This document shows positions 10,390 to 46,674 of a stretch of DNA of 64,000 nt, piece after piece. The position numbers and the translations under genes were made by a program. Origin of the DNA: Pseudomonas sp. stari2 (GTDB lineage Bacteria; Pseudomonadota; Gammaproteobacteria; Pseudomonadales; Pseudomonadaceae); assembly GCF_040760005.1 (NCBI RefSeq), contig NZ_CP099760.1, positions 3,281,501 through 3,345,500 on the forward strand, read 5' to 3'. Positions within the stretch are counted from its first letter, which is position 1; each line of letters starts with the position of its first letter. The notes under the pieces were generated by a model that saw nothing but the letters and a program-made list of their open reading frames with translations, did not search any database and had not been told where the DNA came from.

Positions 10390-10396
10390 CTGAACG

Positions 10397-28555: not shown

Positions 28556-28583
28556 AGTGGCTTCCGCACCGTCACACCCCTAT

Positions 28584-28609: not shown

Positions 28610-28634
28610 CGGAAAAGAATTTGTTTTGCGGCGT

Positions 28635-28660: not shown

Positions 28661-28709
28661 CTTCCTGGTGTCAGCTACATCACTGTAGTCCGCCAGCGAG
28701 GACCTACCG

Positions 28710-29681: not shown

Positions 29682-29695
29682 GGGAGGGCGACCCA

Positions 29696-30004: not shown

Positions 30005-30007
30005 ACA

Positions 30008-30040
30008 GGGGCGCGGCTTCAATGAGGCCGCGCCCTTTTT
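30008..30040 (+). terminator. Rho-independent terminator after the cupredoxin gene
   Basis: A 9-bp perfect stem GGGCGCGGC/GCCGCGCCC with a nine-base loop is followed by TTTTT on the plus strand. It also lies just past the end of the convergent long ebo-type operon and may stop that transcript too. Confidence 0.85.
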
Positions 30041-30046
30041 CTGTTT

Positions 30047-31096
30047 TCAGAGCTGTACCCGACGCAGCCTGCCGCTCAATGCAACCACCTTGTTATCCGG
30101 CGTGGGCAAGGGGCGCCCGGTTAACCCCATGCCTTCGCTCACCAGTACCGCATCCTGCACCAGACACAGGTTGGACGGGGTATCCAGGTCACGGGCGAGC
30201 ACCGTTACTTCACTGGTTTGCAGGTTGCAGCTCAACAGTCGCCCGCTGAACCGGGTAAATCCGCCGTGCAGGGGTTCGCCATTCCAGTCAGGCGGCAGCG
30301 GTTGTTGCAGACGGCTGCAGAGTTCCAGCACCAACACATTTCCTTGCGGACACAGCGCCAGCCCGGTCGGCAGTTGCAGACCGCGAATCAGCACTTCGAT
30401 CCGGCCGGTGTCGGGCCAGACCCGAATCACCTGACCGGCCTGATCATCAAAGTCGATGCCTTTGCGGGCCGGGTCGCCTTGCAGCTCCCCGGAGAACAGG
30501 CTGATCAGCACAGCGTCTGTCGCCGGTTCGTGCACCAGCGTGACGGGGACGGCTTCCTGGCCCATGTCCAGATCGGGCAACTGGACCAATACCTGTTCAT
30601 CCTCGCCAGTGCTGAACTCCACCAACTGATTGGTATCGGGTTTGACCGCCAGCCAACTGCGGCGGGTCGGGTGATAACACAGCGCATTCAGGTTGCCCCG
30701 ACTGTGAAACACCGGCTCCGGCGGGGTGTATTGCAGGTCCAGCAGTTTCGAGCCCGCGACATAATCGGTCTGGCTGACCAGACAGCGCCCGTCACCGCAG
30801 GCGATGTCCGACAGGCCCATGATTTCATCGCGTAGCATGCGGGCCTGCATGTTCATCGAGCGAAAACCCTGAACCACGGTTTCCCGGGCGAGCCAGGCGC
30901 CGGGGTGGAGCGGGTCGGGTTGCAGCCGGCTGATACGGCCGCTGAAGGGCTGATCCGGCAGACCTGAGCCAGCCTCGGCCAGCAGCAGGCTGCCATCGGC
31001 TTGCACGCAGGCGCCGCGTGGGTTCAGCAGGCCTTCGGCGATGATCGTGCTGGGGCGCAGCGTCTCGCGGGGGCGCGCAGGAATATGAACAGTCAT
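30047..31096 (-). CDS. Beta-propeller-like (NHL/SMP-30-type) protein, last gene of the ebo-type operon
   Basis: A 349-residue protein without a signal peptide. It shows repeated blade-like units, each with a short D/G-rich turn: GLLNPRGACVQADGSLLLAEAG, GLQLPTGLALCPQGNVLVLE, and DLDTPSNLCLVQDAVLVSEG. That pattern is usual for six-bladed NHL, SMP-30 or vitamin-K-reductase-like propellers. No catalytic set can be assigned. It follows the 605-residue VioB-like gene by 30 bases. Cyanobacterial scytonemin clusters also contain NHL-type propellers, but relatedness is not established here. It could be a lactonase-like enzyme or a scaffold. Confidence 0.65.
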   Translation of the reverse strand: MTVHIPARPRETLRPSTIIAEGLLNPRGACVQADGSLLLAEAGSGLPDQPFSGRISRLQPDPLHPGAWLARETVVQGFRSMNMQARMLRDEIMGLSDIACGDGRCLVSQTDYVAGSKLLDLQYTPPEPVFHSRGNLNALCYHPTRRSWLAVKPDTNQLVEFSTGEDEQVLVQLPDLDMGQEAVPVTLVHEPATDAVLISLFSGELQGDPARKGIDFDDQAGQVIRVWPDTGRIEVLIRGLQLPTGLALCPQGNVLVLELCSRLQQPLPPDWNGEPLHGGFTRFSGRLLSCNLQTSEVTVLARDLDTPSNLCLVQDAVLVSEGMGLTGRPLPTPDNKVVALSGRLRRVQL

Positions 31097-31126
31097 AGGT
31101 GTCTCTCCATGGTCTGAGGGGCGCGA

Positions 31127-32944
31127 TCACTGCGGCGGTTGCCACGGCTCGCCCGTGAGATAGGCCCGCAACAGTGCCCGCTGACAGGGCGACATTGACC
31201 TCACCACGGGCATGAACAGCGTGGTGCCTTTGTAGGCATCCGAGGTCCGCGCGAGGATCGGGTTCTTCGCGCCCATGATCGCGTCCGGCTGGTTCAGCGG
31301 GATGTAGCGAGACATGGCCGGGAAGGCCAGATAGTGAAAACGCAGGACGTTCGGGTACATCTGTTCCCACGTGATGGTGGTGCCTCTGGGGATGCCGAAG
31401 TCGGTCTGGGCGTATTTGCGGAAGTTGGTGAAATACGTGCCGCTGTCCTGACCGTTGACGGTGTAGGTCAGGGCGACGAACCCGGCGAGTGGCGCCGCTG
31501 CGGGTTTTACGTTGACGGAGAACGTGACGGACAACTGACCGGGGCTCAGCGTCAGGGCAGGAGGGAAATAAAGGAAGTCGCAGTAGCGCTGTTGCGTGTA
31601 ATACGGCCCCGAGGGCGCGGCGGTTAGATCGATTTCGGTTGTGCTGGGCACCGCAGCCCCCAGATACCGGACCTGCAGCGTAATCGACAGGCCCTGCGGG
31701 TAGTCCTCGGTATAGACGCTGCGTTGATCGGCATAGATCCGATAGACAGACTCTGTCGCCTGCAACTTAGTCCCGGCGACCGAGCCGGGGGCACTGATGG
31801 CCAGCGCCGAGGATCTGACCGCCGACTGTTGGGCTGTATTGAGTGGCAAATCGACAATGCCGCCATACACGTAGTAGTCGAGCAGGGGACTGCTGGTCGG
31901 ATCGAGTGTACCCAGGCTGGTGTTGCCGGCTGCCACGGTGACAGTGCCGTAATTGCCGTTAGGTCCGATAGGGCTGGTGATGTCATCCCGGACGGCCCTG
32001 AACGTCTGCTTCGGAATGATATTGACCATGTCGACGCTCAGCATTGCGGGGTTGCTCAGGTCTGCATAGCCGGTGCCGCCCGTGCCCTGATTGACGATCT
32101 GACGGCCCGCCTGACAGTCCAGCGGCTCATTGGCGAACGCCGGCGCCAATGTACCGATGACCCGGCCAATGCTCGGGTTCGGGGTGTCTCTGCCGGCGGC
32201 ATAATCGGCTTGCAGCTGGGACGTGGTCATCGTCGGGCACATTTCGAACATCACGAAGCGCAGGACGATACCGGTGGCGCCCGGTGCCTGGATGATCGAT
32301 CGCAAACCGCTGCTGTTCTGGTTCCAGCTGACAATACTGCTCAGCGGGAAGGTCAGCTGGAAGGTGCCACTGATACGGCAAGAACCAGGTGCATCCAGCT
32401 CCTTCGGCGTCGGTTGCAGCACCCGCTTGCCGAGATCCTGGCTGCTGCAAACCGTATTGGCGTGAATCAGCAATTGGATGTTGCTACTGCTACCGATTTG
32501 CAGGCCACCGACAAATATCTGGGTGGTGGTGGTCGAGGTGGGGTCGAGGTCGACCATCATCGGGCCTGATACCGGCGCTTGCCCGGTGACCGGGTCCACG
32601 GAGCCCAGCAGATAGACCGGCTGGCCCACCATATCCCCGGTGGTACTGACGCTGCCCGGGCTGCCTTGAGAACTGATCAGCGCATTCTGCATGTCGACGA
32701 CATGTTGCCCGTAATGATTCCAGCCACCGGCGGTGTAGTAGTCGCCCGTAGGCGCATTGATCATGCTGTTCAACTGATCGTCGGTATAAGACTGAGACCC
32801 CGATGCCAGGGTCGAAGTGGTCAGGTCAAAGATCGGCCAGTTGTCATCGCCGTCATAAGGAATGGTGGGTGAATTGTTCGGCAGGCTGACATCCGTGCGG
32901 ATACCACCCCAGAAATTCAGTCGCGGGCCGTTGAGGATGCTCAT
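31127..32944 (-). CDS. VioB/RebD N-terminal-domain-like protein (605 aa), lacking the ferritin-like domain
   Basis: It opens with MSILNGPRLNFWGGIRTDVS, resembling the VioB start (as remembered, MSILDFPRIHFRG). Further matches from memory are YYVYGGIVDLPL (356-367) against VioB YWTNHGIVDLPL, YRIYADQRSVYTEDYP (401-416) against LYLEAPDRRHGRFFPE, and the IVLRFVMFEMCP block (226-237). A C-terminal FHYLAFPAMSRYIPLN segment (536-551) resembles the VioB YELVYPFMSDKVFSLAD hinge. The protein ends soon after, so the ferritin-like domain of VioB/RebD/StaD is missing. No signal peptide. It sits three bases after a secreted haem-protein gene. Function unknown; a role with tryptophan-derived imines is a hypothesis. 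Confidence 0.6.
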   Translation of the reverse strand: MSILNGPRLNFWGGIRTDVSLPNNSPTIPYDGDDNWPIFDLTTSTLASGSQSYTDDQLNSMINAPTGDYYTAGGWNHYGQHVVDMQNALISSQGSPGSVSTTGDMVGQPVYLLGSVDPVTGQAPVSGPMMVDLDPTSTTTTQIFVGGLQIGSSSNIQLLIHANTVCSSQDLGKRVLQPTPKELDAPGSCRISGTFQLTFPLSSIVSWNQNSSGLRSIIQAPGATGIVLRFVMFEMCPTMTTSQLQADYAAGRDTPNPSIGRVIGTLAPAFANEPLDCQAGRQIVNQGTGGTGYADLSNPAMLSVDMVNIIPKQTFRAVRDDITSPIGPNGNYGTVTVAAGNTSLGTLDPTSSPLLDYYVYGGIVDLPLNTAQQSAVRSSALAISAPGSVAGTKLQATESVYRIYADQRSVYTEDYPQGLSITLQVRYLGAAVPSTTEIDLTAAPSGPYYTQQRYCDFLYFPPALTLSPGQLSVTFSVNVKPAAAPLAGFVALTYTVNGQDSGTYFTNFRKYAQTDFGIPRGTTITWEQMYPNVLRFHYLAFPAMSRYIPLNQPDAIMGAKNPILARTSDAYKGTTLFMPVVRSMSPCQRALLRAYLTGEPWQPPQ

Positions 32945-32947
32945 GAT

Positions 32948-34240
32948 TTATTTCCCGTCCTTGATGGTTTTGCCGAGCGGCGAATTGGCGAATTTGAACA
33001 GGTAGGAGTAATCGGACTTGTAGGGACTCTTGACCGGCGTCGCCATGGAATGGCAGTTCATGCAACTACTGTTGGGCTGGATGTAGCTTTCCATCGTCAC
33101 GTTGGCCGAGAGTGCCGGTGTCGGCTGGCCCAGCGGGTTGCCGGGGTTGTCCGGCATCAGCGGGCGTTGGGTGGTGATGAGCTGGTAGTACTTCAACACG
33201 CTGTTTTGCAGCCCCGGGTCGGCCTGGTAACTGGCGTTGATCTGGTTGGTGATATCGGCAATCGGCGTGACCCGGTTCAGCGGGTTCGGGGTCTGGAACG
33301 TGGTGCCGGGTTTGGGCACGCAGACCTGGTGCGGGCCCTGAGTCTGCCAGTCGCACGGCGATTGGTTGAGGGATGCGGAGGGCGCGGCGGCGTTGAAGTA
33401 GGAATAGGCCGTGCCCGCGACCGGCTGATCGACCCATTGGCCGTTCACCAGTGCCTTGGGTGGAACGTTGTCGACCTGCTCGAACGTCGACCAGATCCAC
33501 TGCGGATAACCGTTGGCCTTGGTGATGATGTGCAAGCCCACCAGCCCCAGAAATGCCTCGGTGACACCGTTCTTCTGGCCCTGTTCATTGAAGGTCGCCA
33601 CCTGGGCGAGCATGGTCAGGTAACGGCTGGCGTTGTCATGGACGGTGAGTATGCGCCAGCTCGACTTGATCTCGATGACGCCCCACGGAAACGTGATGTT
33701 GTTGGCTTTGGAGACGACGTCGGCGTTATAGAAGTTATTGCCCACGATGTAGTTGTATGAAGTCTCGTTGGCCGAAATATCGTAATAGGTCGGGTTTTTC
33801 GCCTGATCGATCAGCCAGCCGCCGACCGCCTGATCGACGGCGTTGACCTGAGCGCTGTTTTTCAAAGAGGCGATGTTGATGATGTTGAAGCTTTTTGCGA
33901 TCTGCGGGGAATTCCACGGCCCCGGATTGGCGGCGTTCGGCAGAAAGATTTCCCCCACGGTCTTGTAGGTCTGCCAGACGGTGTAGCCGGCCGCACCGGG
34001 CTGCTTGGTGCAGTCGGGATTGCCGCGCTGCCCGCTCTTTGCCGGCCAGCTCAGGGCGATGAACATCTGCCAGCTGTATTGATCGAACTGATCCTGACCG
34101 GCCGTGGCGGCCGGTGCGGTGCTCGGCGGCTGGCAGTTCAACTGGCTGGTCTGCATCGATGGCATGGCTTGTTCCCTGGCCAGCACCGGCAGGCTGGCCA
34201 GACCCAGCAACATCACGGAAAAACAGAGTGTGGTTTTCAT
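32948..34240 (-). CDS. Secreted mono-haem c-type protein (430 aa)
   Basis: A 430-residue exported protein (signal peptide about 1-21, SLPVLA). A single haem-c motif CMNCH is at 393-397, in a C-terminal QPNSSCMNCHSMA segment followed by lysine- and serine-rich residues. The body has QYSWQMFIALSWPA (53-66) and GLVGLHIITKANGYPQWIWSTFEQV (232-256), both shared in pattern with the 380-residue protein at 37626-38768. The two are therefore paralogues of a large mono-haem family. Start ATG 34238-34240 has AGGA six bases upstream. It likely passes electrons or oxidises a substrate in the periplasm. Confidence 0.75.
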   Translation of the reverse strand: MKTTLCFSVMLLGLASLPVLAREQAMPSMQTSQLNCQPPSTAPAATAGQDQFDQYSWQMFIALSWPAKSGQRGNPDCTKQPGAAGYTVWQTYKTVGEIFLPNAANPGPWNSPQIAKSFNIINIASLKNSAQVNAVDQAVGGWLIDQAKNPTYYDISANETSYNYIVGNNFYNADVVSKANNITFPWGVIEIKSSWRILTVHDNASRYLTMLAQVATFNEQGQKNGVTEAFLGLVGLHIITKANGYPQWIWSTFEQVDNVPPKALVNGQWVDQPVAGTAYSYFNAAAPSASLNQSPCDWQTQGPHQVCVPKPGTTFQTPNPLNRVTPIADITNQINASYQADPGLQNSVLKYYQLITTQRPLMPDNPGNPLGQPTPALSANVTMESYIQPNSSCMNCHSMATPVKSPYKSDYSYLFKFANSPLGKTIKDGK

Positions 34241-34259
34241 GGCGATCCTTCGTCGTTGA

Positions 34260-35180
34260 TCACGGTTTACGCTGCATGAGCTTGTTCCACTGCGCCTTCT
34301 GACCGTTGCTCTGCGATTCCGGTGGCTCGAACAACTGGCAGGGTGGCGGATTCGACGGGCACATGGCGGCGACCTGCGCCCAGGTCTTGGCCGGGTCCGG
34401 TTTGGCGATGTGAAAGTCGGTGTAGTTCTGGCTAACGATCGGCGCGTTGGCGACGCTGGTATCGCCCGAAAAGAAGAACGATTGCGGCGGCCGGTAGGGC
34501 GGTTGCCCCGACATTTTTTTGTAGAAGGCATAACCGAACAGAATCGGACCTTGTGGCGAATCGAGATCCAGGGCGTAAGCCTGCACGCTGCCGTTGAGGT
34601 TTTTGCTGCGCTCGGCGCTGTAGGGCAGGTGTTCGATGAAATCCTGCCGTGGCGGATGATTCATCGGGGAAAACATGCAGCAGGCCGGCATGTCTTTCGG
34701 GCGATCCTGCGGATAGGTGAGGAAGTACGCCTTGTTGCCCAGAGATACGAACGAGCAGGTGTAGTTGTTGTTCTTGATCGGGAAGATCGGCAGACAGTAT
34801 TTCTCGTAGTGCTCCATCATCGCGCCGAAGCCGTCGCCGTCCGGTGGAATGTACGTCGTGTCGTAGTAGCTGGTTCCGCGAGAGACGGTGTAGTCCGCAG
34901 GCTTCAGGGTCGTTGGCGGGTTGCTGTAGGGCGGCGGGTTGTTTTCGTAGTTGTGCATCACCCGGTACATGGTCCAGTTACTGATCCAGAACGCCGGAAA
35001 GAACGGGTCGGAAGGCTCACCCGGATTGCGTTTGGCGATGCAGTTGCCGTTCTGTTCATTACACCCCAGCGTGTTGTGTACGCCATTGGTGAAGTAGACG
35101 GCGCCGCTGTCCTGGGCGAATGCAGACGGGCAAAACAACAGGATCAACAGCAACAGACGGTTCAAGAGGCTGACGTTCAT
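34260..35180 (-). CDS. Secreted cysteine-containing protein of unknown function (306 aa)
   Basis: A 306-residue protein with a clear signal peptide (LLLLILLFCPSAFA, cleaved about residue 22). The mature part contains LGCNEQNGNC, a CLPIFPIKNNNYTCSF pair and PACCMFSPMNHPP, so several disulphides are likely. Aromatic and proline residues are abundant. I recognise no family. It lies between the two haem-protein/VioB-like pairs of the operon, 19 bases before the 430-residue gene, so a periplasmic role in the same process is probable. Confidence 0.7.
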   Translation of the reverse strand: MNVSLLNRLLLLILLFCPSAFAQDSGAVYFTNGVHNTLGCNEQNGNCIAKRNPGEPSDPFFPAFWISNWTMYRVMHNYENNPPPYSNPPTTLKPADYTVSRGTSYYDTTYIPPDGDGFGAMMEHYEKYCLPIFPIKNNNYTCSFVSLGNKAYFLTYPQDRPKDMPACCMFSPMNHPPRQDFIEHLPYSAERSKNLNGSVQAYALDLDSPQGPILFGYAFYKKMSGQPPYRPPQSFFFSGDTSVANAPIVSQNYTDFHIAKPDPAKTWAQVAAMCPSNPPPCQLFEPPESQSNGQKAQWNKLMQRKP

Positions 35181-35245
35181 GGGTCACTCCCTGGCAAGGC
35201 GCACTGCGGGCGCGAGGCCCGCAGTGGCTCATCTTTCCTGATGGA

Positions 35246-37615
35246 TCAGAGGTCGTCGTAATCGCTCATCTTGAGTTGCATGGGCGGGAAGTTGCGCTTG
35301 ACCAGTTTCTGCGCCCACAACTCCAGCACGGCGCGACGGCTTTGCGACAGGTCACGGGTGATAGGCATCGCGAGGGTGCTTTCTTCCTGGTACTCCTTGC
35401 TGATCAGCCGGATCAACTGATCGACAGCGCCTTCCACCCGCGTGCGGGAGTTGAGCGGCATGAACTTGTTCATGATCGGGTACAGGTAGTAGAAGGTCTT
35501 CAGGACCCGTGGGTAGATGAAGTCATCCCAGATCGCTTCGGGCGCATCCTTGTTCTTGTAGATGTCGTTCCAGTAGTTGACGAAGTCCTGTTGCAGCTGC
35601 ATGTCCAGTGGCAGGACGCGTAGCGGGGCGAGGAAGTCGACTTGGGCGTCCGTGAGCGCGAAGCTGAAAGGGATGTCCGGGTCGCTGGTGCCTTCCTTGA
35701 CGATGAAGCGCAGCGTAGGGAAACCCGGGGCCACAGCCTTGAAACTCACCTGGGCGATGCCGTCGGCATTGGTGGTGGTGGCGACGTAGGAGTAATCCAC
35801 CGTCTGATCGTTATCCAGCGTTCCGCTGACGTAGACGCCGGCGTCGAATTCCAGGCAAGGGGTTAGCGGGACCGTGATCGGTTTACTTGAGCCGTTCATG
35901 AATGACTGATAACTGACCTCAACGCCCACCGGTTTGTCTTTGGTTTCCAGATTGACCAGTCGACGACCGCTGCCGGTGGCCAGGTAGTTCGCTACAGGCG
36001 CCGTGCCCTTGAACTGTGGCAGGTTGGCGGTGTTTTTGTTGCGGTCTGCGTTGTCGTAGAACAGCGTGAAGTCGGGGTTATTCAGGAACGTCAGGTAGTA
36101 GTCGCTGGTGGTCACGTTGTAAGGGTTGCCGTATTCCACAACCCAGAGTGTGGTGTTGGCGGCCGGTTGACCATTTTTCTGCACCATGATGTTCAGCGTC
36201 TTGCGGTCGTTCACGTCGACGAAGGTGCCGCTTTCTACTACCTCGGCGGTCCAGACTTGCTGAGTGGCGGCTTTCACTGGGCCTGATGAAGTCTGTTGTT
36301 GCAGTTCCAGCGGGCCGGATTGCAAGGTGGTCGCTTGCGTGGCGCTGAGGGGTATATCCAGCAGGCCCGAGCGTTTGTCGAAGGCCGACTGTCGATACTG
36401 CTCGAAACCGATGTCGACCACCGGCACGAAATTCCCGTTCTGCGATACACCCAGCTTAAAGTCGCCGGCCTGGAACTTCTCGGCAGTCAGGATATCGGCG
36501 TTCTTGTTCAGCGGATAGAACGGAAACGTGTTGGCCAGATCCAGCGACACCGTGTTGTTGGTGATCTGCGCCGAGGTCACACCCAGATTGGTGCTTGTCG
36601 GCTGAGACATGCCGGGGCGAGTGACCATGATCTTCTGGTCGGTGACCAGACGCGGGCCGGCGGGCGCCGTGGGGTATTCGTGATCGAACCACAGACCCAG
36701 GGTCGCTACAGTACGGTTGTAAGCGGGGTTGAAGAAAATATCGGAAACGTTGTCCAGCCCCTTCTGATACATCGCCGTCAAACGGGCCTGCGCCGATTTG
36801 ACATTGTCGCGGGTGTCGACGTACGGGAAGTCGTTGAACACACCGTTCCTGTCGTAACAGGTGAGGTACGTGGCGAACCTGAACATCAGACCCTGAGCGT
36901 TTTGCGCCTCCATCTGTTGCTGAAGATTGCTCAGCAGGACGGAATCGCCAATGACCCATTCCAGATTGTCCCGGGGAAAGCAGGTCTGCCAGGTGGTGGT
37001 GACATACGCGAGACCACCGAAGTCGCCGGCCCAATTGAACGTCAGGAAGCGGTCGAGCATCCGGTATTGACGGTTCAGGGTCAGGCCACAGGTGGCATCA
37101 CCCAGCTGCAACTTGTCGAAGTACAGCGCCGTGAAGGTGTTCTGCCACGGGCTGATATCGACGAAGCGCGCGGCCGTCGGGCTCTGACTGCCAAAAGGAT
37201 TGCCGAGCAACTGGAAGTCCCTGCCGACCAGTGCATCCTGAGCAATGTAGGTGTTGGCCTGCAACTCGCCGCCAATAATGGTCGAGCGGGTGCTCTGGTA
37301 ACTCACCGTCCCGCAGGCGTTGTCGCCAAACAGGTCCCATTCGGCGGGTATGAACGGGAAGGTGTTCGGGCCTCCGTTGGTCGGAACCTGCTGCACATAG
37401 GGCGGCAGGTCATTCTGCTGCACGGGTGAAATGATCCAGGGCATCAGGGTGGTGGGAGCGTTCTCCTGGGTAATGTCGTAGTAGCGGGTGAACGGCCAGT
37501 TGATATCCATCTTCACCGCGTCATACAGCGGCAGCACGTCGTTGTTGTTGGCCGTCGGCGGGTTCCAGAACATATGGCCGTTGAGGTAGATCCGGGGGAA
37601 GTTCAATACGCTCAT
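35246..37615 (-). CDS. VioB/RebD N-terminal-domain-like protein (789 aa), lacking the ferritin-like domain
   Basis: It opens MSVLNFPRIYLNGHMFWNPP then TANNND, very like the VioB opening (as remembered, FPRIHFRGWARVNAPTANRD). AFDKRSGLLDIPLS (411-424) fits the VioB NHGIVDLPL region. FYYLYPIMNKFMPLN (708-722) followed by AMPITRDLSQSRRAVLELW (749-767) mirrors VioB YELVYPFMSDKVFSLAD and MPSTRELSAPKARLFLKYL. In VioB the ferritin-like catalytic domain comes next; here the protein ends 22 residues later. An Ig-like insert of about 150 residues (roughly 470-660) explains the extra length over its 605-residue paralogue. No signal peptide. It follows a secreted haem-protein gene by 10 bases. Confidence 0.65.
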   Translation of the reverse strand: MSVLNFPRIYLNGHMFWNPPTANNNDVLPLYDAVKMDINWPFTRYYDITQENAPTTLMPWIISPVQQNDLPPYVQQVPTNGGPNTFPFIPAEWDLFGDNACGTVSYQSTRSTIIGGELQANTYIAQDALVGRDFQLLGNPFGSQSPTAARFVDISPWQNTFTALYFDKLQLGDATCGLTLNRQYRMLDRFLTFNWAGDFGGLAYVTTTWQTCFPRDNLEWVIGDSVLLSNLQQQMEAQNAQGLMFRFATYLTCYDRNGVFNDFPYVDTRDNVKSAQARLTAMYQKGLDNVSDIFFNPAYNRTVATLGLWFDHEYPTAPAGPRLVTDQKIMVTRPGMSQPTSTNLGVTSAQITNNTVSLDLANTFPFYPLNKNADILTAEKFQAGDFKLGVSQNGNFVPVVDIGFEQYRQSAFDKRSGLLDIPLSATQATTLQSGPLELQQQTSSGPVKAATQQVWTAEVVESGTFVDVNDRKTLNIMVQKNGQPAANTTLWVVEYGNPYNVTTSDYYLTFLNNPDFTLFYDNADRNKNTANLPQFKGTAPVANYLATGSGRRLVNLETKDKPVGVEVSYQSFMNGSSKPITVPLTPCLEFDAGVYVSGTLDNDQTVDYSYVATTTNADGIAQVSFKAVAPGFPTLRFIVKEGTSDPDIPFSFALTDAQVDFLAPLRVLPLDMQLQQDFVNYWNDIYKNKDAPEAIWDDFIYPRVLKTFYYLYPIMNKFMPLNSRTRVEGAVDQLIRLISKEYQEESTLAMPITRDLSQSRRAVLELWAQKLVKRNFPPMQLKMSDYDDL

Positions 37616-37625
37616 GTCGTGCTCC

Positions 37626-38768
37626 TTAGCGTTGCCACTGGGCGCGCTTCAGCGACCAGACAAAGTCCAGTTTTTTGTAGCCTTCGAAGTCGGAGGCCGG
37701 CAGCGGAGTGGTCGGGTAGACGATGCCGCCATCCTGTTTCATGGCGAAGTTGTAGTAGCCCTTGTCGTTCGAGTAGGCCGCAGTGCCGTGGCAGGCCAGA
37801 CAGGACGAAGTGTTCTGGAACGCCGACTCCAGCTGCGAGTTGGCCAGCACCTGGGTGACGGGCTGGTACTCGACCCCGATCAGTTCGTACTTCGACAGTG
37901 TAGGGTTGCTCGTCTGGAAGCTGGCATTCACCGGTTTGGCGGCCGGGGTCGGCCCGGTGGTGTTGGTCATCGGCGTCGGTGTGGGGGCGTTGGTCACCGT
38001 GTATTTGCTGTTGTTGACGTTTTCGAAGGTAGTCCAGACCCAGTTGGCGTCCAGCTTGTTGACCACATGCAGTCCGCTCAACGCCGCATAGCCGACCTGG
38101 TAGGTGCCGTCATCCTGCTCGTAATAAGCCTGGCCAATGTAGTAACCGTCGTTGGCCAGGGTTTGCCGGTAGGTCGTGTCCGAACCGATCCACAGCCACG
38201 CGGCCTTCAACTCCCACGCAGTGGCCGGGAAGTTCAGGTTATCCGGCAGCGCGGCCTGACCGTTCATGTTGTAGACCTGACGCGCCACGATGTAGTCGAA
38301 GGTGTCCTGTCCCATCAATAGTTGAAAGCGCACCGGGTTGCCTCGCTGAGAAGCAGGCACGGCGCCGCCCATGTGCAGCGCCAGACCATCGACCTGTTGC
38401 GTGGAATTGATATTGTGGAAGGTCCGGTTCAGGTCCATCCCCAACGTTCGGGCCTGTGTCAGCACCTCGGCTGGAGGCGGCACGGGACTGGCGTAGGCGC
38501 CGGGAGCAGCGCCATCCGGCAGGTAGACCTGGTCCGAAGGCTTCATGGTTTCCCACACCCGGTTACTGGCCTGGGTGGGGCTGAACTGGTTCAGACAGAC
38601 GAACCAGTTCCAGGCCATGGTTTCGGGACTCTGCTCGAACGCCGCCCGGGTCTTGGCAATGTCGGTTCCAAACTTCAGGAATTGATTGCAATCGAAACTG
38701 TTGGTGTCCTGTGCCTGAGCCAAACCGGCCAGTGCACTGAGAACGGTTAAAGAAATGGCTCGCCGCAT
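37626..38768 (-). CDS. Secreted mono-haem c-type protein (380 aa)
   Basis: A 380-residue exported protein (signal peptide 1-20, LAGLAQA). The haem motif CLACH is at 323-327 in a QNTSSCLACHGTA context. It shares WNWFVCLNQFSP (53-64), ALSGLHVVNKLDANWVWTTFENV (229-251) and the SSC..CH tail with the 430-residue protein at 32948-34240. A threonine/proline-rich spacer (about 260-275) separates the core from the haem segment. Its ATG at 38766-38768 lies inside the last 22 bases of the AlkP-family gene, so coupling is tight. It pairs with the 789-residue VioB-like gene that follows. Confidence 0.75.
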   Translation of the reverse strand: MRRAISLTVLSALAGLAQAQDTNSFDCNQFLKFGTDIAKTRAAFEQSPETMAWNWFVCLNQFSPTQASNRVWETMKPSDQVYLPDGAAPGAYASPVPPPAEVLTQARTLGMDLNRTFHNINSTQQVDGLALHMGGAVPASQRGNPVRFQLLMGQDTFDYIVARQVYNMNGQAALPDNLNFPATAWELKAAWLWIGSDTTYRQTLANDGYYIGQAYYEQDDGTYQVGYAALSGLHVVNKLDANWVWTTFENVNNSKYTVTNAPTPTPMTNTTGPTPAAKPVNASFQTSNPTLSKYELIGVEYQPVTQVLANSQLESAFQNTSSCLACHGTAAYSNDKGYYNFAMKQDGGIVYPTTPLPASDFEGYKKLDFVWSLKRAQWQR

Positions 38769-40192
38769 GGAAGCTCCTTGGCATTGGCCGAGTGGTGGTA
38801 GAGGTGCCCCAGGAAATGCTGAAGGAGCAGTTGTTTCACTGCCGTGGCCGCCAGGGTTTGTGGCAGCGGCAGATCGCAATTGGTGATGAGCAGCGGGCCG
38901 CTTTCCTCGCGCTCGGGCAGGCGACCGTGACTGCCACGGACCAGTCCGGTGTCCAGTGGAATCAGGTCCATGTAGTAGCGAAAGCCGAGCTTTTTCTGCA
39001 GCAGGCGCCGCGCGACTCGCAGTTTCGGGAAGCGAATGGCCGGGTCGATGAACAGTTCCAGCGGGTCGTAGCCCGGCTTTCGGTGGATGTCCACGGTGCG
39101 GGCAAAGTCGGGCGCCTTGTGGTCGTCGAACCAGTAGTAGTAATCGAACCAGTAACCCGCGGCGGCCACGGCCACTAGTTCGCCGCTGCGCGGGTGATCC
39201 AGCGCAAAGGTCCGTTGTTCGGCCTTGTCCAGCACCTGCTCGATGCCGGGTTGGCGCTGCAACAGGGCTTTGACGCGGGGAATGTCCCGGGCGTTTTTCA
39301 CGTAGACATGCGCGATCTGATGATCTGCCACGGCAAATGCCGCACTCGCGCCGGGGTCGAGCAGTTCCCAAGTCAGTGATTGGCGTACTTCCAGCAAACC
39401 TTCCGAGCGCAGCACGCGGTTGATGGACACCGATTGATTGACCGCTTCGATGCCGTATTCGGACAACAGCATCACCGCTGCGCCTTGCGCCTCGGCGAAG
39501 GCCAGCAGCCGCCCGACTTCCTGGTCGATGGCCTGCACCTCATCGGCAATCGACGGATGATCGGGCCCCACCCGCTGCAGGCTGTAGTCGAGGTGCGGCA
39601 GGTAGATCAATTGCAGGTCGGGCCGGTCGAGCTGGAATTCGGCAATGGCGCAATCGACGATCCAGCGGCTCGACGCAATACCCGCCGCCGGCCCCCAAAA
39701 GCCCGGAAAGGGAAACTCGCCGATCTGCCGTTCGATGGTTTCGTGCAACGAAGCCGGTGACGAATACAGGCCGAACAACTTGCGGCCATCAGCCGGGTAG
39801 TGAGGACGCGGGGTGATGGCGGCATCCACGTCGGCGTACATGTTGTACCACCAGAACAACTGGCTGCAGCGAAACCCGGGGATCTCGCGCTTGAGCGTTT
39901 CCCAGACCTTTTCACCCTGGATCAACGCATTGGGCTGCAACCAGAAGCGCACTTCGGCCTGATCGCGAAAGTACCAGCCGTTGCCGACGATGCCGTGTTC
40001 CGACGGCGGCCGTCCGGTGAGAATCGAGGCCTGCACCGACGACGTGACCGCCGGGAACACCGGTTGCAGGCAGGCCATTTTGGCGGTTTTGAGCAGGGCA
40101 TTGATGTTCGGGGTCGCGTCACCCAGCAACGATGGCGTCAGCCCGACCACGTTGATCAGCAGCAGCGGTTGGCGTGGTTGTTCAGAGGGCAT
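38747..40192 (-). CDS. eboF: Alkaline phosphatase superfamily nucleotide pyrophosphatase/phosphodiesterase (EboF-like)
   Basis: A 481-residue enzyme of the NPP/alkaline-phosphatase fold. The nucleophile region is PAVTSSVQASILTGRPPSEHG (about 47-67, quoted here in part), with metal-site residues in YLPHLDYSLQRVGPDH and in LLSEYGIEAV, where most relatives have S-D-H-G. No signal peptide, so it acts in the cytoplasm. It is the last gene of the Ebo module, overlapping eboE by 11 bases. It may hydrolyse a nucleotide- or phosphate-linked intermediate. Confidence 0.8.
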   Translation of the reverse strand: MPSEQPRQPLLLINVVGLTPSLLGDATPNINALLKTAKMACLQPVFPAVTSSVQASILTGRPPSEHGIVGNGWYFRDQAEVRFWLQPNALIQGEKVWETLKREIPGFRCSQLFWWYNMYADVDAAITPRPHYPADGRKLFGLYSSPASLHETIERQIGEFPFPGFWGPAAGIASSRWIVDCAIAEFQLDRPDLQLIYLPHLDYSLQRVGPDHPSIADEVQAIDQEVGRLLAFAEAQGAAVMLLSEYGIEAVNQSVSINRVLRSEGLLEVRQSLTWELLDPGASAAFAVADHQIAHVYVKNARDIPRVKALLQRQPGIEQVLDKAEQRTFALDHPRSGELVAVAAAGYWFDYYYWFDDHKAPDFARTVDIHRKPGYDPLELFIDPAIRFPKLRVARRLLQKKLGFRYYMDLIPLDTGLVRGSHGRLPEREESGPLLITNCDLPLPQTLAATAVKQLLLQHFLGHLYHHSANAKELPCGEPFL

Positions 40193-41414
40193 CGGCGTAC
40201 GCCTCCTGCGCTAGTGGCTGCAGCAGTTGCCGTTGGCGCAACTGCTCCTCGACCCATTTCAGTTCCGCCGCGATACCCTGCAGTTGGGCGTGTTCATTGG
40301 TCGGACGCAGTTGGGCGGGGAGGACGCCCCAGCTGTAGGTTTCCACTTCCAGCACGGGGCGAAACTCCCGATGGTCGGCGAGATAGTCAAAGGTCTGCGC
40401 CAGAGCGATCTGACTGCCACTCAGCTCGGGCAACACCAACTGTTCGCTGAACAGCGGGATATGGAAATGAATACGCAACTCGGCATAGCGATCCGGGTGC
40501 TGTGCGCATTCGTCGAGGGCGGCGGGCAGATCGGCCCAGGCCACCATGCGGTCCTGCGCGTCCAGCGCCTTCACCTGATGCAGATAGGTGGTTTCGCAGA
40601 AGTCGCGCAAGGTCTCGAGGACCTGTTCGCGACGGCTGTCTTCCGCGCAGGGCAAACGACAGACCAAGGCATTGGAAAGCTGGATCTTGCCGATCGGCAC
40701 CCGTGCCTGACGCAGCCTCACCAGCGAGCGATAACAATCTTCGAACATCACGGCCTGGTGGCAGACGTCAAAACACAGCGCCAGATACTCATGATGCGGA
40801 TCCGTGGTTTGCCAGCGGCGGAAAAAGGCGATGGCCTGATCGGTGTTTTCCAGCACGCAGTCCGGTTCCATCTCCAGACAGAACACGATTTTCTTGCCGG
40901 TCTCCCGATGCAGCCTCGCCAGTGACGTCGTGAGTTCGCGCAGTTGAAACTCGGCACGCAGCTGCAGCGTCGGGCTCCAGGTGGCGGCGTACCCCAGCGG
41001 CACGGTGGAAATCACCCCTTGATGACAGTCCGCTGGCAACGCCTGCGCGAGGATCTGCGCCAGTTCGAGGCTGTACGCCAGGCGCTTCGGCTCGGCCCAA
41101 CTGGGCAGGTACACGGCGGCTTTTACCGCACCCTCATGAAACTGCCCGTAGGGGAAACCGTTGAGCGAGGTCAGTCGCAGCCCACTGCGTTGAAGCAGTC
41201 CGAGAAATTCCGTCCGCGCGGTTTTCTGCTGTAACCCAGTGGCGGCGAGGGCGCTGATCCACAGTCCACTGTCCTGTTCTTTCAGCCCGCGTTGCGTGCG
41301 CACGCCCTGAAAGTGCTGTTCGATGGAGGCCTTCAGCCTGGCCAGGTCATGGGTCGGGTGCACATTGCTGCAATACCCGACCTGCGCGGCAGCCCAACCC
41401 ATGCCGGCACTCAT
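40182..41414 (-). CDS. eboE: EboE, xylose-isomerase-like TIM-barrel protein
   Basis: A 410-residue cytoplasmic protein with a sugar-isomerase/endonuclease-IV-type TIM barrel. Visible barrel strands with acidic or histidine tips include VGYCSNVHPTHD, LTSLNGFPYGQFH, KIVFCLEMEPDCVLENTD, LALCFDVCHQAVM and ELRIHFHIPLF, which fits a metal-binding site. EboE is required with the other Ebo proteins for scytonemin monomer export in cyanobacteria, though its reaction is unknown. Start ATG 41412-41414 overlaps the eboB stop by four bases; a longer frame is rejected. Confidence 0.85.
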   Translation of the reverse strand: MSAGMGWAAAQVGYCSNVHPTHDLARLKASIEQHFQGVRTQRGLKEQDSGLWISALAATGLQQKTARTEFLGLLQRSGLRLTSLNGFPYGQFHEGAVKAAVYLPSWAEPKRLAYSLELAQILAQALPADCHQGVISTVPLGYAATWSPTLQLRAEFQLRELTTSLARLHRETGKKIVFCLEMEPDCVLENTDQAIAFFRRWQTTDPHHEYLALCFDVCHQAVMFEDCYRSLVRLRQARVPIGKIQLSNALVCRLPCAEDSRREQVLETLRDFCETTYLHQVKALDAQDRMVAWADLPAALDECAQHPDRYAELRIHFHIPLFSEQLVLPELSGSQIALAQTFDYLADHREFRPVLEVETYSWGVLPAQLRPTNEHAQLQGIAAELKWVEEQLRQRQLLQPLAQEAYADAL

Positions 41415-42295
41415 TTGATCACCGGCTCCTGCCCGCGCAGGGCAGAGTTGTCCTGCCATTGCCGGCGCTGATCGATGGGTAGCGGCGTGCTGATCAGGGT
41501 TTTGTCGAGTTGGCCACTCTGAGCGAAAAAATCCACCGGATTGTGGAACAGCACTTGTTCGACCTGAGCCTCGCTGAAACCCGCCGCGGACATTGCCTGA
41601 CCGGTTTTCGGCACCTTGAGCGGATCGCTGATGCCCCAGTCGGCGGCGCTGTTGACCACCATTTTCTCGGTGCCGTACTGCTGGAGCAGGGCGACCATGC
41701 GCTGTTCCGACATCTTGGTGTTGGGGTAGATCGAGTGACCGCGCCAGCAGTCGCTGTCCAGCACCAGCGGCAGCGTCAGTTCGTTGAGGTGATCGATGAT
41801 CACCAGATTCTCATTGATCCCCACCTCGCGAATCACCGCCAGCGTGCGCTTGGTGCCGCCGATCTTGTCGCGGTGCGGCGTGTGCACCAGCACCGGTAGA
41901 TTGAATTGTCTGGCCAGCTCCAGCTGTGCGGCGAGAAAACGGTCTTCCTCGGGCGTAATGTCGTCGTAGCCGATTTCACCGACCGCTACCACGCCGTCTT
42001 TCACCAGATAGCGCGGCAGAATCTCCAGCACTTCATTGGCCACCGACAGGTCATTGGCCTCCTTGGGGTTGAGGCCGATGGTGCAGAAGTGATGGATGCC
42101 GAACATGCTTGCGCGAAAGCGCTCCCAGCCCAGCAGGGTGTCGAAGTAATCGATGAAGCTGCCAACGCTGGTCCGGGCCTGACCCTGCCAGAACGCGGGC
42201 TCGATCACCCCGGTGATGCCGGCGGCGGCCATGTTCTGGTAGTCGTCGGTGGTGCGGCTGACCATATGAATGTGCGGGTCGAAATACTTGGGCAT
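41411..42295 (-). CDS. eboB: EboB, TatD-family metal hydrolase
   Basis: A 294-residue amidohydrolase-fold protein. Metal ligands are in order: DPHIHM (His8, His10), VGEIGYDD, LVHTPHRDK, IIDHLN and NSAADWG. This is the TatD arrangement. The first strand MPKYFDPHIH lacks a signal peptide. Its substrate in Ebo clusters is unknown. It lies 35 bases after eboA and overlaps eboE by four, in the middle of the Ebo module. Confidence 0.87.
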   Translation of the reverse strand: MPKYFDPHIHMVSRTTDDYQNMAAAGITGVIEPAFWQGQARTSVGSFIDYFDTLLGWERFRASMFGIHHFCTIGLNPKEANDLSVANEVLEILPRYLVKDGVVAVGEIGYDDITPEEDRFLAAQLELARQFNLPVLVHTPHRDKIGGTKRTLAVIREVGINENLVIIDHLNELTLPLVLDSDCWRGHSIYPNTKMSEQRMVALLQQYGTEKMVVNSAADWGISDPLKVPKTGQAMSAAGFSEAQVEQVLFHNPVDFFAQSGQLDKTLISTPLPIDQRRQWQDNSALRGQEPVIK

Positions 42296-42330
42296 GGTGA
42301 ATCCTCGTCAAGGGAAGGAGACGTTGGGTA

Positions 42331-43086
42331 TCAGTTCAGGTGACTGCGCCATTCCGGCGGCAGGCGCTGCTGTTGGTCCAGGTCGAGCAGTCGCTGACGC
42401 TGCTCCGGGGTGAGCTGGTCGAAGGCAATCGCCAGGGGCAAGCCAACGGACACCGCCCGATCTGCCGCGAGTTGTTCTTCCAGCAGGTCGAGGGCCAGTT
42501 GATTGAGGGGGATGCTGTGTCGCTGGCTCAGGCCGATCAGGCGTCGCACATCGAGCCCCATGCCCAGCGCTTTCAACAGCAGTTGGTGGAAGGCCCGTTC
42601 CGGGTAGTGACGGGACGGGTAGGGCGTATCGAGGGCGAGGGCGGCAAACACCTGACTGTTGCTGGTGCGCCCGGCCTGCAACGCCAGTTCCACGCATTGC
42701 CCATGGCTGTCGAGCCAGTCGAAGGCTTTGAGGACGGCGATCTTTTCCTGATCGTCGCCCCACAGAAAAAGCTGGCGCAGCATGGACAATTGTCCGCCCT
42801 CGGAGGACTGTTCAAGGACCTGTGCCAGCAATAAAGCGCGCGCCAGCTGGATCAGATTCCAGTGGCTGTCGGGCAGTGCCCGGTCACGCAGATGACGCTT
42901 GCACTGGCCACTCAGAAACGATGCGGTATTGGCGTCCGGTTGCCGGGCCAGTTGCTCTTGCGCCTGACGCCACCAGTGCAATTCGCTGTCATCGAGTTGC
43001 CGGGCGAGGGCCTGATGGTGTTCGGCAAGGCAATCGCGGCGCATGCCGAGGGCCGCCGTCGGCGGCGCGGTGACGTCCATGTTCAT
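42331..43086 (-). CDS. eboA: EboA-type protein
   Basis: A 251-residue soluble, helix-rich protein with a WRQAQEQL...HWNLIQLARALLLAQVL pattern and many leucine and glutamine residues, consistent with an alpha-helical repeat scaffold. I assign EboA mainly by its place between the UbiA-like eboC and TatD-like eboB genes. Start ATG 43084-43086 overlaps the eboC stop in an ATGA junction; a second ATG two codons on (43078-43080) is possible. A much longer in-frame extension lies inside eboC and is rejected. Confidence 0.75.
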   Translation of the reverse strand: MNMDVTAPPTAALGMRRDCLAEHHQALARQLDDSELHWWRQAQEQLARQPDANTASFLSGQCKRHLRDRALPDSHWNLIQLARALLLAQVLEQSSEGGQLSMLRQLFLWGDDQEKIAVLKAFDWLDSHGQCVELALQAGRTSNSQVFAALALDTPYPSRHYPERAFHQLLLKALGMGLDVRRLIGLSQRHSIPLNQLALDLLEEQLAADRAVSVGLPLAIAFDQLTPEQRQRLLDLDQQQRLPPEWRSHLN

Positions 43087-43973
43087 GTCGGTTTGATCCA
43101 GCGCTGGAAGTGTGGGAGCAGGAAGAACACCAGAACACACAGCAGGCTGCCCAACGGCTGGTTGGCCACGGCCATCACCAGCGCATCGAACAGTGGCAGC
43201 GCCGCTAGGCCGGCCCCGATAAAGGCGCGGACCTTGCGCTGCTGCGGGTTGGCAAGGTGCTGCCGGTAATGCCAGCCCAGCCAGCCAAGCCAGAGCAACA
43301 GCACCGGCCAGAACCACAGGTTGTCGGCGTAGATCGCCAACGCCAGCGGGCTTAGCATCAGGAGCAGAGGCAAGCGACTGAGCAACTGGTTGTTGTGCTC
43401 ATTGCGCGCCAGGTAAGTCAGCCCGCTGATGTAGACGCCCAGCAAAATCGCGCAGAGCCAGATCGGCTCCGGCGGCACCGCCAGACTGGCCGCTGCCGTG
43501 AGGTACAGTGCCGAGCGACAGGCGCCCATCAACCAAACGCTGTGGGCGTATTTTTTGTGCAGCACGTTGTAGCCAATGATGCAGCCCACCAACAGGCTGA
43601 CGCTGGCCAACAACCAATGCGGCTGATCGATCAGTTGGCTCAGCCCCAGCACCGAAGCGGCCGCCAGTGTCAGCAACAACACGGTGGCGAGGCGCACTTG
43701 CTGGCGGCTCACCAGACCCAGCGTGATGGGCCGAGGATTGTGGTGTTGCTGATCCCAGTCGGCATCCAGCAGATCGTTCAACAACATGCCGGCCAGATAC
43801 AGCAGTGACAGGGTGAACAGCAGCAGAATCCACACGAGCCACGAGGGCGGCGCCAGTGCACCGGCGCTGCTGGCCAGCAGGGCGGCGGCCAGGGTGTTGG
43901 TCCACACCGTGGGCAGGTTGGAGACACGACCGAGGGTCATCCAGGTCTTGAGGTTTTGCGGGGTCTGGCTCAT
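43083..43973 (-). CDS. eboC: EboC, UbiA-family prenyltransferase
   Basis: A 296-residue polytopic protein with about eight hydrophobic segments. The first aspartate-rich motif LNDLLDADWDQQHHNPRPI (about 65-83) matches the UbiA NDxxDxxxD consensus, and a second polar loop follows. Such enzymes transfer a prenyl chain to an aromatic or small polar acceptor in the membrane. In the Ebo module it probably lipidates the compound made by EboD, a possible membrane carrier. Four-base overlaps join it to the genes on both sides. Confidence 0.88.
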   Translation of the reverse strand: MSQTPQNLKTWMTLGRVSNLPTVWTNTLAAALLASSAGALAPPSWLVWILLLFTLSLLYLAGMLLNDLLDADWDQQHHNPRPITLGLVSRQQVRLATVLLLTLAAASVLGLSQLIDQPHWLLASVSLLVGCIIGYNVLHKKYAHSVWLMGACRSALYLTAAASLAVPPEPIWLCAILLGVYISGLTYLARNEHNNQLLSRLPLLLMLSPLALAIYADNLWFWPVLLLWLGWLGWHYRQHLANPQQRKVRAFIGAGLAALPLFDALVMAVANQPLGSLLCVLVFFLLPHFQRWIKPT

Positions 43974-45844
43974 TTCGCGAAACCCTCGCTCAAGTCGAGC
44001 ACCGGGACGCTGCGGGCGGACAGCTTCTGCAACGCCTGCGCCATCCTCGCGTCGTCGACTTCATGCAGGTCTACCGACTGGCCGATTCCGCTGAGCATCG
44101 GGATCGAGAGTTGCCCGCCGAGGTGTTGACGGAACTCTTCCAGCCCGAGCAACACGGGTGAGCGACCTTGCGCATCTTTGAGGGTCAGTTCCGGCGGGCA
44201 CAGGTTGAAACCGAGTCGGGTCAACAGGCTCATCACCCGTTCACTGTCGGTATCGCTCAACAGCCCGAGGGCATTGGCGTAAAGCCCGTCGAGTGCCATG
44301 CCAACCGCAACGGCTTCGCCATGGCGCAAGCGGTGATGGCTGAGGTTCTCCAGTTTGTGCGCGGCCCAGTGCCCGTAATCCAGTGGCCGTCCGTTACCGC
44401 GTTCGAAGGGATCGCCGGCGCCGGTGATGTGCGCCAGGTGCAGCTCGGCGCAGCGGCGGATCGCGTAACGACTGGCCGGATGATCGAAGCGGGCGAGGGC
44501 ATCGGCCTGTTGCTCCATCCATTCGAAGAATGTCCGGTCCTTGATCAGCGCGACTTTCACCGCTTCGGCGAGCCCGGCGACCTGGTCGCGGCGGGTCAGG
44601 CTGGTCAGCAACTGGAAGTCATTGATCACGGCAGTGGCGGGGTAGAAGGCGCCGAGCAGGTTTTTCTGGCCGAAGGCGTTGATGCCGTTTTTCACTCCGA
44701 TGCCGGCGTCGTTCTGCGCCAGCACGGTGCTCGGCACGCGGATCAGGCGGATACCGCGATGGAAGGTGGCGCAGGCATAGCCCACGGAATCCAGCGCCGC
44801 GCCACCGCCAAGAGCGAGTACGTAACAATGCCGGTCCAGCCCATGTTTCAGCATGTCGGCGTAGAGCTGCTGCAGCACCTGTGAATCCTTGCTCAGCTCA
44901 CCGGCCGGAATGGCAATCGGCGGTGCCTGTAAATGCAGGTCCGCTGCATGGGCAGCAAAGTAGCCATCGATCTGTGCCAGCAGATGCGGCGCGCTTTTCA
45001 GCAGTTGTTCATCGGCGAACACCATCACCGTCACCCGGCCGTTTTGCCGGGCGGTGAGTTGTTGATGCAGGCAGGGGTTAGAAGAGTCGAAGAGGTGATC
45101 GGTGAACACCACCGGGTAGTCGTAACTGACTTCGAAACGCCCGTGCAGCACTGGCCCGGCACCGTGTTTGCGCAGGGCCTTGAACAGGCTGTACCCGGCG
45201 ATGAACAACCCCGGCAACACCATGCTGGCGAGAATCGTCACCAGCAGCGCGTTCTCCTCGACGAGGAATGTGCCGATGGCGCTGTAGGCCAGTGCCAGCC
45301 CTGCATTGGCCAGGGTGGTCACCAGCAGGAATGCCCGCAGTGGATAATGCTGCATGCCGGCGGCCACCACAGACGTCTCAGCCAGCACGGGCACGCCGCG
45401 CAGACAGATCAACGACAGCGTGCCCAGTCGATAGGCCATTTGCCCGGGCTTGCGTTGATGCAGGCCGAGACGACTGGACAGCATCCGGAAATAACCGGCC
45501 CCCAATGCATAACCCAATCCGGCCCCCAGACATAGGCCAATGAAAATCACCAGATAACCGCCGACGCTGCCGAGCATGGCCACGGCCAGTAGCGCGACCA
45601 CACTGGAAGGCACGGGCAGCACGACGTCCAGCGCCAACAGAGCGATCAGCAACAGCGCCAGGTTGAGTTGCTGGGTGGGGGAAGTCGGCAGGTACAGGTC
45701 GAGATGATTGAGGAAGTCCTGGATCTGCTGTTCGAACAACAGGAAACTGGCAATCACCAGTACTGCAAAGCAAAACAGTGACAGCCAGAAATGTCCGGCC
45801 GACGCATTTTTCGAGAGCGCACGATACCAACGGCTGTGCTTCAT
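43970..45844 (-). CDS. eboD: EboD: sugar-phosphate cyclase fused to an N-terminal DedA/VTT membrane domain
   Basis: A 624-residue fusion (ATG 45842-45844; a TTG one codon earlier is possible). Residues about 20-225 form a VTT/DedA-type membrane domain of about five helices, with GYLVIFIGLCLGAGLGYALG and a LICLRGVPVLAETSVVAAGM segment typical of that family's R-x-P...G loop. Residues about 235-600 are a dehydroquinate-synthase-like cyclase. The NAD loop is GGGAALDSVGYA, and metal ligands fit Glu (GLAEAVKVAL), His (DYGHWAAHK) and His (HRLRHGEAV). The substrate may be sedoheptulose 7-phosphate or another ketose phosphate, not necessarily DAHP. It is the first gene of the operon. The fusion would place cyclisation at the membrane, beside EboC. 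Confidence 0.85.
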   Translation of the reverse strand: MKHSRWYRALSKNASAGHFWLSLFCFAVLVIASFLLFEQQIQDFLNHLDLYLPTSPTQQLNLALLLIALLALDVVLPVPSSVVALLAVAMLGSVGGYLVIFIGLCLGAGLGYALGAGYFRMLSSRLGLHQRKPGQMAYRLGTLSLICLRGVPVLAETSVVAAGMQHYPLRAFLLVTTLANAGLALAYSAIGTFLVEENALLVTILASMVLPGLFIAGYSLFKALRKHGAGPVLHGRFEVSYDYPVVFTDHLFDSSNPCLHQQLTARQNGRVTVMVFADEQLLKSAPHLLAQIDGYFAAHAADLHLQAPPIAIPAGELSKDSQVLQQLYADMLKHGLDRHCYVLALGGGAALDSVGYACATFHRGIRLIRVPSTVLAQNDAGIGVKNGINAFGQKNLLGAFYPATAVINDFQLLTSLTRRDQVAGLAEAVKVALIKDRTFFEWMEQQADALARFDHPASRYAIRRCAELHLAHITGAGDPFERGNGRPLDYGHWAAHKLENLSHHRLRHGEAVAVGMALDGLYANALGLLSDTDSERVMSLLTRLGFNLCPPELTLKDAQGRSPVLLGLEEFRQHLGGQLSIPMLSGIGQSVDLHEVDDARMAQALQKLSARSVPVLDLSEGFAK

Positions 45845-46674
45845 CAAGCATCCCTCTTGATTGTGATGACTGAGTTCCGTTCAGCAACTAAAGCAGCGTC
45901 TTGTTTGTTTCAGAAGAATGAACGCTCCCGCCGGGAGGGCTGTTTTTATTATTCGATGGGGTCGTGCCAGTGAAGATATTCATGAACCTAGACGGTTGTT
46001 GTGGTTTTGCAAGTCGATTGGGTGATGGCGCTTTTAAGAGGATGTTTAGTGGGTGTGAGAGTATCGCAAGGTGGCGGGATTATTTTTTGGATTTACTCAG
46101 CATATTCAACAGGATGGGGGATTTTATTGAAGTTTTTTAAATGCTGTTTAAAGCGCCAGATGAGAAGCCGTTTCAACTGGATTTGTTAGCAAGCTACTTA
46201 GGTGATGGCTATGTGGCATTATTTTTCGTTATTTGAGTTATTGCGGCTGGCTATAAGTGCTCCTGATAGTTGAGTGATTTGCTCGGTTAGTTGGACTTTT
46301 AACTTGCAAGCTCACATGGAAAAGAAAGATCCGGATGAAAGGCAATTCTTTAAAACCCGTGCCGCAGACCGTGCTTGATCAATTGGCGACTGACGGAACC
46401 TTCGGCCGCGTCGCTGAGAATGGGCAGATGCTTGAAGTGGAGGGCGGCAAGTTTTCGCTTGCCGATGGCAGGTGCAAAGGGCGGGGCTGGAAAGGCAGAG
46501 TCGTTGGGCTGCGAAGGCTGATATCCAGACGGCAGGAAGGCTGAGTGTGCGGAGATTTTGAGCTGCTATCGTTGTGCATACAGCAGAGTCGTATCCCTGC
46601 GAGGTTCTTGAGTGGCAAACCCTGCTGTATGGACGAGGCGGGTCAGCCCGGGACGTCATCGTCCGTGGCTGAGA
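45845..46674. other. 830-base region of lower GC upstream of the ebo-type operon
   Basis: No confident gene is present. The part near 45970-46340 is clearly AT-richer than the flanks. A short stem CTCCC-GCC-GGGAG (45925-45937) followed by a T-rich tract lies about 80 bases before eboD. A small plus-strand open frame at 46335-46544 (69 codons) begins with protein-like sequence (VPQTVLDQLATDGTFG) then becomes arginine/glycine-rich, which may mean a decayed gene. The eboD promoter should be here. Confidence 0.45.

Follow-up and report, generated by a model that had tools for sequence, protein, structure and literature searches.

What does an operon make that joins ebo genes to genes for VioB-like and secreted-looking haem proteins, and do its two halves belong together? 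The locus that raises this question lies at 30047-45844 of a 64,000-nucleotide stretch (the window) of the chromosome of Pseudomonas sp. stari2, which is one contig of 6.31 Mb. It consists of twelve minus-strand open reading frames, six of ebo type and six others, with neighbours spaced by -22 to +65 bases. A preliminary description, made from the letters of the window, had read these as closely packed genes with overlaps or gaps of at most 65 bases, and had divided them into six ebo-type genes and six genes for VioB-N-like, haem, Cys-rich and propeller proteins; the spacing bears this out and the family matches fit. The co-occurrence of the two halves across relatives indicates that they belong together, and we have little doubt that the locus is an EDB-type cluster like that of P. 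fluorescens NZI7. The identity with EDB and ebo clusters, also suggested earlier, is very probably right: this is a full ebo set in a Pseudomonas. The kind of locus is thus already known, but its RNA elements, a removable block of genes and VioB halves without the ferritin-like part are details that we did not meet in the available parts of the published accounts.

The genes are, in order of transcription:

43970..45844, minus: gene 1, VTT membrane domain fused to a dehydroquinate-synthase-like EboD, 624 residues (NF004852, 634.8 bits, cut-off 333)
43083..43973, minus: gene 2, UbiA prenyltransferase of EboC type, 296 residues (PF01040, 49.7 bits; EboC model, 83.9 bits)
42331..43086, minus: gene 3, EboA-domain protein, 251 residues (NF035938, 133.6 bits, cut-off 50)
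41411..42295, minus: gene 4, TatD-like hydrolase of EboB type, 294 residues (PF01026, 44.9 bits)
40182..41414, minus: gene 5, EboE TIM-barrel protein, 410 residues (NF035939, 400.8 bits, cut-off 250)
38747..40192, minus: gene 6, type I phosphodiesterase of presumed EboF type, 481 residues (PF01663, 212.5 bits)
37626..38768, minus: gene 7, secreted-looking haem protein with a single CxxCH, 380 residues (by motif; predicted model resembles cytochrome P460/c'-beta)
35246..37615, minus: gene 8, VioB-N-like protein without the ferritin-like part, 789 residues (TIGR04492, 34.3 bits, cut-off 1250)
34260..35180, minus: gene 9, Cys-rich secreted-looking protein, 306 residues (signal-like N-terminus; no family match)
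32948..34240, minus: gene 10, paralogue of gene 7 with one CxxCH, 430 residues (by sequence comparison)
31127..32944, minus: gene 11, VioB-N-like paralogue of gene 8, 605 residues (TIGR04492, 16 bits)
30047..31096, minus: gene 12, beta-propeller-type protein, ScyE/strictosidine-synthase-like, 349 residues (PF03088, 25.7 bits, cut-off 25)

Co-occurrence of the two halves

Relatives were collected with a gene 8 profile scan at one genome per species, whose reach is limited to genomes with either of two peptide patterns. It returned 57 loci, 54 close and 3 distant. The close loci came mainly from Pseudomonas, with Azomonas, Rheinheimera and records labelled Pantoea and Paucimonas among them. A comparison of gene order, as proposed in the preliminary description, found the same order in all 54, the distant locus L079 of Rheinheimera among them. 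Contig ends truncate three loci, and 51 reach gene 12. Because the same order recurs in 54 relatives, the arrangement is not a product of chance.

EboE was seen at 53 of the 54 gene 8 loci, and the exception, L054, is a 5-kb contig that starts in gene 6. Looking from the other side, a sample of 298 Pseudomonas genomes contained 38 with EboE (our own counted), and every one of these also carried gene 8. Apart from the truncated L054, no copy of the orthologous second half without ebo genes was found among the 54 loci. Across 398 genomes of the phylum, with at most two candidates scored per genome, a VioB-N profile was positive in two, our own and one other Pseudomonas. These counts indicate that the ebo half and the second half belong together, as had been claimed.

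A nine-gene core and an optional block

The twelve-gene unit of the preliminary description is complete in 40 of the 51 uncut loci, but in the other 11 exactly genes 9-11 are absent. An independent sample gave a similar division, with a second VioB-N match in 29 of 38 genomes and gene 8 alone in 9. Genes 9-11 are dispensable, and the operon is a core of nine genes with an optional three-gene block. The block appears to have been lost as a unit in several lineages, with one clear deletion scar (in L040, where the start of gene 9 is joined to the end of gene 11); depending on the gene, the trees call for 3 to 6 switches of state. Among 39 full-length relatives, gene 9 has a median identity of 88%.

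The ebo half varies as well. Gene 1 is a full-length VTT-EboD fusion in 48 of 53 relatives; two of the other five are cut or broken, and three (L073, L082 and L084) are missing the VTT domain in frame and also lack genes 9-11. Most of UbiA is gone too from L073, which retains most of the operon. Since these three loci form one group in the trees of genes 1 and 12 and not in those of the other genes, their VTT-less state is probably one reduced allele that spread. Together with L040, they are natural deletion alleles that offer ready-made comparisons of what each part contributes.

Genes 5 and 3 score over the curated cut-offs of the EboE and EboA-domain models. Under the stricter EboA_family model NF035937 gene 3 reached 80.3 bits (cut-off 320), and gene 2 stayed under the cut-off of 250 of the EboC equivalog model while matching the UbiA family itself. 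Gene 6 is what we take to be EboF; the labels EboA to EboE follow PMC9235831. The most conserved protein of the operon is the TatD-like gene 4, with a median identity of 96% over 53 loci; the medians of genes 2, 3, 5 and 6, at 69-87%, lie far below it.

Candidate RNA elements

Two elements were found on the minus strand:

45845..45885, minus: gene 1 leader with two hairpins that have GGA in the loop (candidate Rsm sites), one overlapping the ribosome-binding site
35202..35226, minus: intergenic RNA hairpin, genes 8 to 9 (stem conservation, covariation)

RsmA/E targets typically carry GGA hairpins in pairs. Among 48 gene 1 leaders (window included), which are related rows and not 48 independent cases, GGA lies inside a hairpin loop at least once in 43 and at least twice in 29; single-base shuffles of the same leaders gave means of 3.1 with at least one such hairpin and 0.1 with at least two. 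One hairpin covers the ribosome-binding site and the other lies about 30 bases upstream. The same test before the other eleven genes found at least two GGA hairpins in no locus, save 1 of 42 before gene 9, and at least one in 0 to 12 loci, save before gene 8. Upstream of gene 8 (around 37616-37680), 36 of 54 relatives have a GGA-loop hairpin, possibly a second Rsm site inside the operon. The host genome also encodes three CsrA-family genes and RsmY (123 bits). Two results count against Rsm control: the strict CANGGANG motif occurs in 0 of 48 gene 1 leaders, and covariation in 42 aligned leaders was no better than in shuffles, so that conservation is mainly of sequence. Taking both sides together, we regard Rsm control through the gene 1 leader as quite probable. 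The hairpins would offer a post-transcriptional route for the control of EDB by GacS that has been reported (PMC4406715).

The second element follows the stop codon of gene 8. Of 53 loci, 46 show a stem of 8 or more pairs here, compared with 165 of 3240 random stretches. In 38 distinct rows, preselected for the stem so that the percentage paired is inflated, 6 of 9 pairs change on both sides, and 0 of 500 shuffles reach the observed score. Ten of the 11 loci that lack genes 9-11 keep a stem of at least 10 pairs. Because no T run follows the hairpin on the coding strand in the window, a processing or stabilising role seems more likely than termination.

Haem proteins and gene 9

Genes 7 and 10 are paralogues (E values of 2e-16 and 1e-19 in the two search directions), as are genes 8 and 11 (E about 1e-9); the operon therefore holds two 'haem protein plus VioB-N' pairs, separated by gene 9. 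The CxxCH motif is kept in 53 of 53 full-length orthologues of gene 7 and in 39 of 39 of gene 10. By inspection genes 7, 9 and 10 have signal-like N-termini. Library searches returned no family match for gene 9.

The best structural matches of the predicted gene 7 model were to cytochrome P460/c'-beta. This resemblance was unexpected, and sequence tests did not confirm it: PF16694 matched neither gene 7 nor gene 10 at E up to 1, the sole match of that model in the genome was another gene (C1:2876522, 129.7 bits), and hhalign to PF16694 gave a weak profile match (probability 67 over 23 columns and 43 over 25 columns). Genes 7 and 10 may encode ordinary periplasmic electron carriers and not catalysts, the P460 resemblance reflecting a shared fold only; we rate this only a little short of an even chance. 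Catalytic steps at a P460-like haem we put forward somewhat more tentatively still.

Secreted haem proteins as part of an ebo operon, as described earlier, hold for this locus but not for the family at large. In the class sample of 369 genomes, scored at five candidates per genome at most, 8 have family members: our own and 7 of the 368 others, which have distant relatives (two by short matches only) and all lack EboE. The 13 stretches retrieved from the surroundings of the haem-family matches yielded neither VioB-N nor gene 9. These distributions indicate that the family is independent of ebo. In L106, L107 and L109 the distant gene 7/10 relative has a GMC oxidoreductase domain after it, which suggests a general redox partnership. 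At another locus (L110:7658-9388 and 9569-11029), a haem-family relative is the neighbour of an apparent chitin-type lytic polysaccharide monooxygenase, as we presume from a motif at the mature N-terminus of the latter.

VioB-like proteins and the likely product

The best stretch of gene 8 against the VioB model TIGR04492 covers profile positions 1-162, and its score, like that of gene 11, is far under the cut-off. On these matches the VioB-like proteins carry just the first part of VioB. The model of the ferritin-like part, PF12902, found 0 matches across the host genome; the same model detects a Caulobacter control and all three distant loci (L085, L086 and L087), where VioB-N is accompanied by a PF12902 partner. 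In Nostoc (L087) VioB is split into two genes, for a first part of 687 residues and a ferritin-like part of 414 residues, near a flavin amine oxidase, and in Richelia (L086) both parts form a single protein of 1110 residues. An alphaproteobacterial contig (L085:1-6739) carries a gene-9-like fragment, a ferritin-like protein, a VioB-N protein, a TonB-dependent receptor and a VTT protein; genes 2-6 (EboE included) and the EboD part of gene 1 went undetected within the 13.5 kb seen. Because genes 8 and 11 are without the ferritin-like part and none was found in the genome, the chemistry of VioB is not simply transferable to them.

The preliminary description had taken the VioB-like neighbours as a hint of an indole compound and had called the product unknown. 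The latter is out of date: expressed in E. coli, the NZI7 EDB cluster gives indoles, and two of these are moderate repellents of C. elegans (review PMC9655573, citing Zhou, Vergis and Mahmud 2022), and the same review states that EDB lets NZI7 turn external tryptophan into repellent indoles. We consider an indole product likely here.

A different compound would fit some of the same facts. The operon could export and modify a non-indole molecule, with EboD and UbiA producing, for instance, a prenylated quinoline or a polyhydroxylated aromatic, and the indoles seen in E. coli being side products. The ebo enzyme UbiA-297 of marine bacteria farnesylates quinolines, prefers 8-hydroxyquinoline-2-carboxylic acid and gave no product with phenols or catechols (PMC9235831), EboD belongs to the dehydroquinate synthase superfamily, no VioA was found over the cut-off, and the repellence of the indoles tested is moderate only. 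However, the conversion of external tryptophan by the NZI7 cluster runs counter to this account, and L073 keeps most of the operon when nearly devoid of UbiA, so not every lineage requires prenylation. We find a non-indole product unlikely.

Flanking features

A single transcript for all twelve genes is plausible from their layout. The sole promoter-like match within 28500-47000 lies upstream of gene 1 (5.1 expected by chance), and the scanned region holds 15 terminator-like repeats against 16.5 expected by chance. The longest stem of that scan lies just past gene 12:

30007..30037, no strand assigned: terminator-like inverted repeat, T-run on the plus-strand side

Adjoining the operon, 27304-30022 holds a minus-strand pair of a sigma-70-type factor and a zinc-finger (anti-sigma-like) protein; beyond the pair, a plus-strand metallophosphatase and a cupredoxin-like gene (by eye) are convergent with gene 12.

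Proposed function

On balance we favour an operon under Gac/Rsm control for making and placing a cell-associated nematode deterrent derived from tryptophan, with the haem proteins performing or merely supporting an oxidation. GacS control, deterrence of C. elegans and indole products are taken from the literature on NZI7, and the steps of the mechanism we infer. At low density, Rsm proteins would occupy both GGA hairpins of the gene 1 leader and repress translation until Gac-induced small RNAs lift the repression. Cytoplasmic enzymes, the VioB-N-like proteins among them, would then act on a tryptophan-derived intermediate, which the ebo proteins, including a membrane-bound VTT-EboD fusion and UbiA, may carry or anchor across the inner membrane. 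In the periplasm, the secreted products of genes 7 and 10, each with a single haem, would perform or support oxidation, and genes 9-11 might add an optional second round. In NZI7 the EDB factor is poorly diffusible or cell-associated (PMC5736907), and insertions in the eboA, eboD or eboE homologues make the strain edible (PMC6282210).

A more elaborate form would be a new kind of tryptophan pathway in two compartments, with stand-alone VioB N-halves preparing an indole intermediate in the cytoplasm, ebo/VTT transfer, P460-like finishing in the periplasm and the intra-operon hairpin setting the ratio of the parts; this we consider doubtful. To our knowledge, P460-like single-haem proteins do not otherwise occur in natural-product assembly.

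That the halves merely share a transcript and serve separate purposes is improbable: the ebo clusters described in cyanobacteria, Flavobacteria and Saccharomonospora come without named VioB-like neighbours in the available text (PMC6282210, PMC9235831), distant gene 7/10 relatives occur in 7 genomes without EboE and the covarying hairpin after gene 8 could split expression, but the association is complete both ways in the Pseudomonas sample, a truncated contig apart, and the order is the same as far away as Rheinheimera.

The deterrent reading matters since EDB is an ecological defence of soil pseudomonads, and the available parts of the published accounts do not give roles for its non-ebo genes. 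Here each gene has a place, in a nine-gene core or an optional three-gene block, with a VioB half lacking the ferritin-like part and haem proteins whose fold can be tested.

Comparison with known systems

Genes 8 and 11 share with the bisindole synthases VioB and RebD their match to the first part of VioB; they differ in scoring far under the VioB cut-off, and no PF12902 part was found in this genome. With cytochrome P460/c'-beta, genes 7 and 10 have in common a CxxCH near the C-terminus, and gene 7 the top structural matches of its model, but at 380-430 residues they are much longer than the matched chains (135-160) and show no PF16694 match. Gene 12 differs from ScyE of the scytonemin operon in having no obvious signal peptide and in scoring 59.6 bits against the ScyE family NF033206, under the cut-off of 80. 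The ebo/scytonemin operon of Nostoc punctiforme likewise has EboA-E type genes and a ScyE-like propeller gene, and its published role concerns a tryptophan-derived product whose intermediates are exported to the periplasm; unlike ours, it has no VioB-like or single-haem genes named in the available descriptions.

The closest counterpart is the EDB cluster of NZI7, to which the locus is likened through published descriptions. In NZI7, capsule-type ABC permease genes lie just upstream of EDB (PMC6282210), whereas they are not among the four genes tested upstream here. The NZI7 cluster includes a full ebo cluster, and some of its other genes encode signal peptides (PMC6282210). Our locus matches it in its Pseudomonas host, its full ebo set and its extra genes with signal-like N-termini, and the reported link to GacS finds a counterpart here in the conserved candidate Rsm sites.

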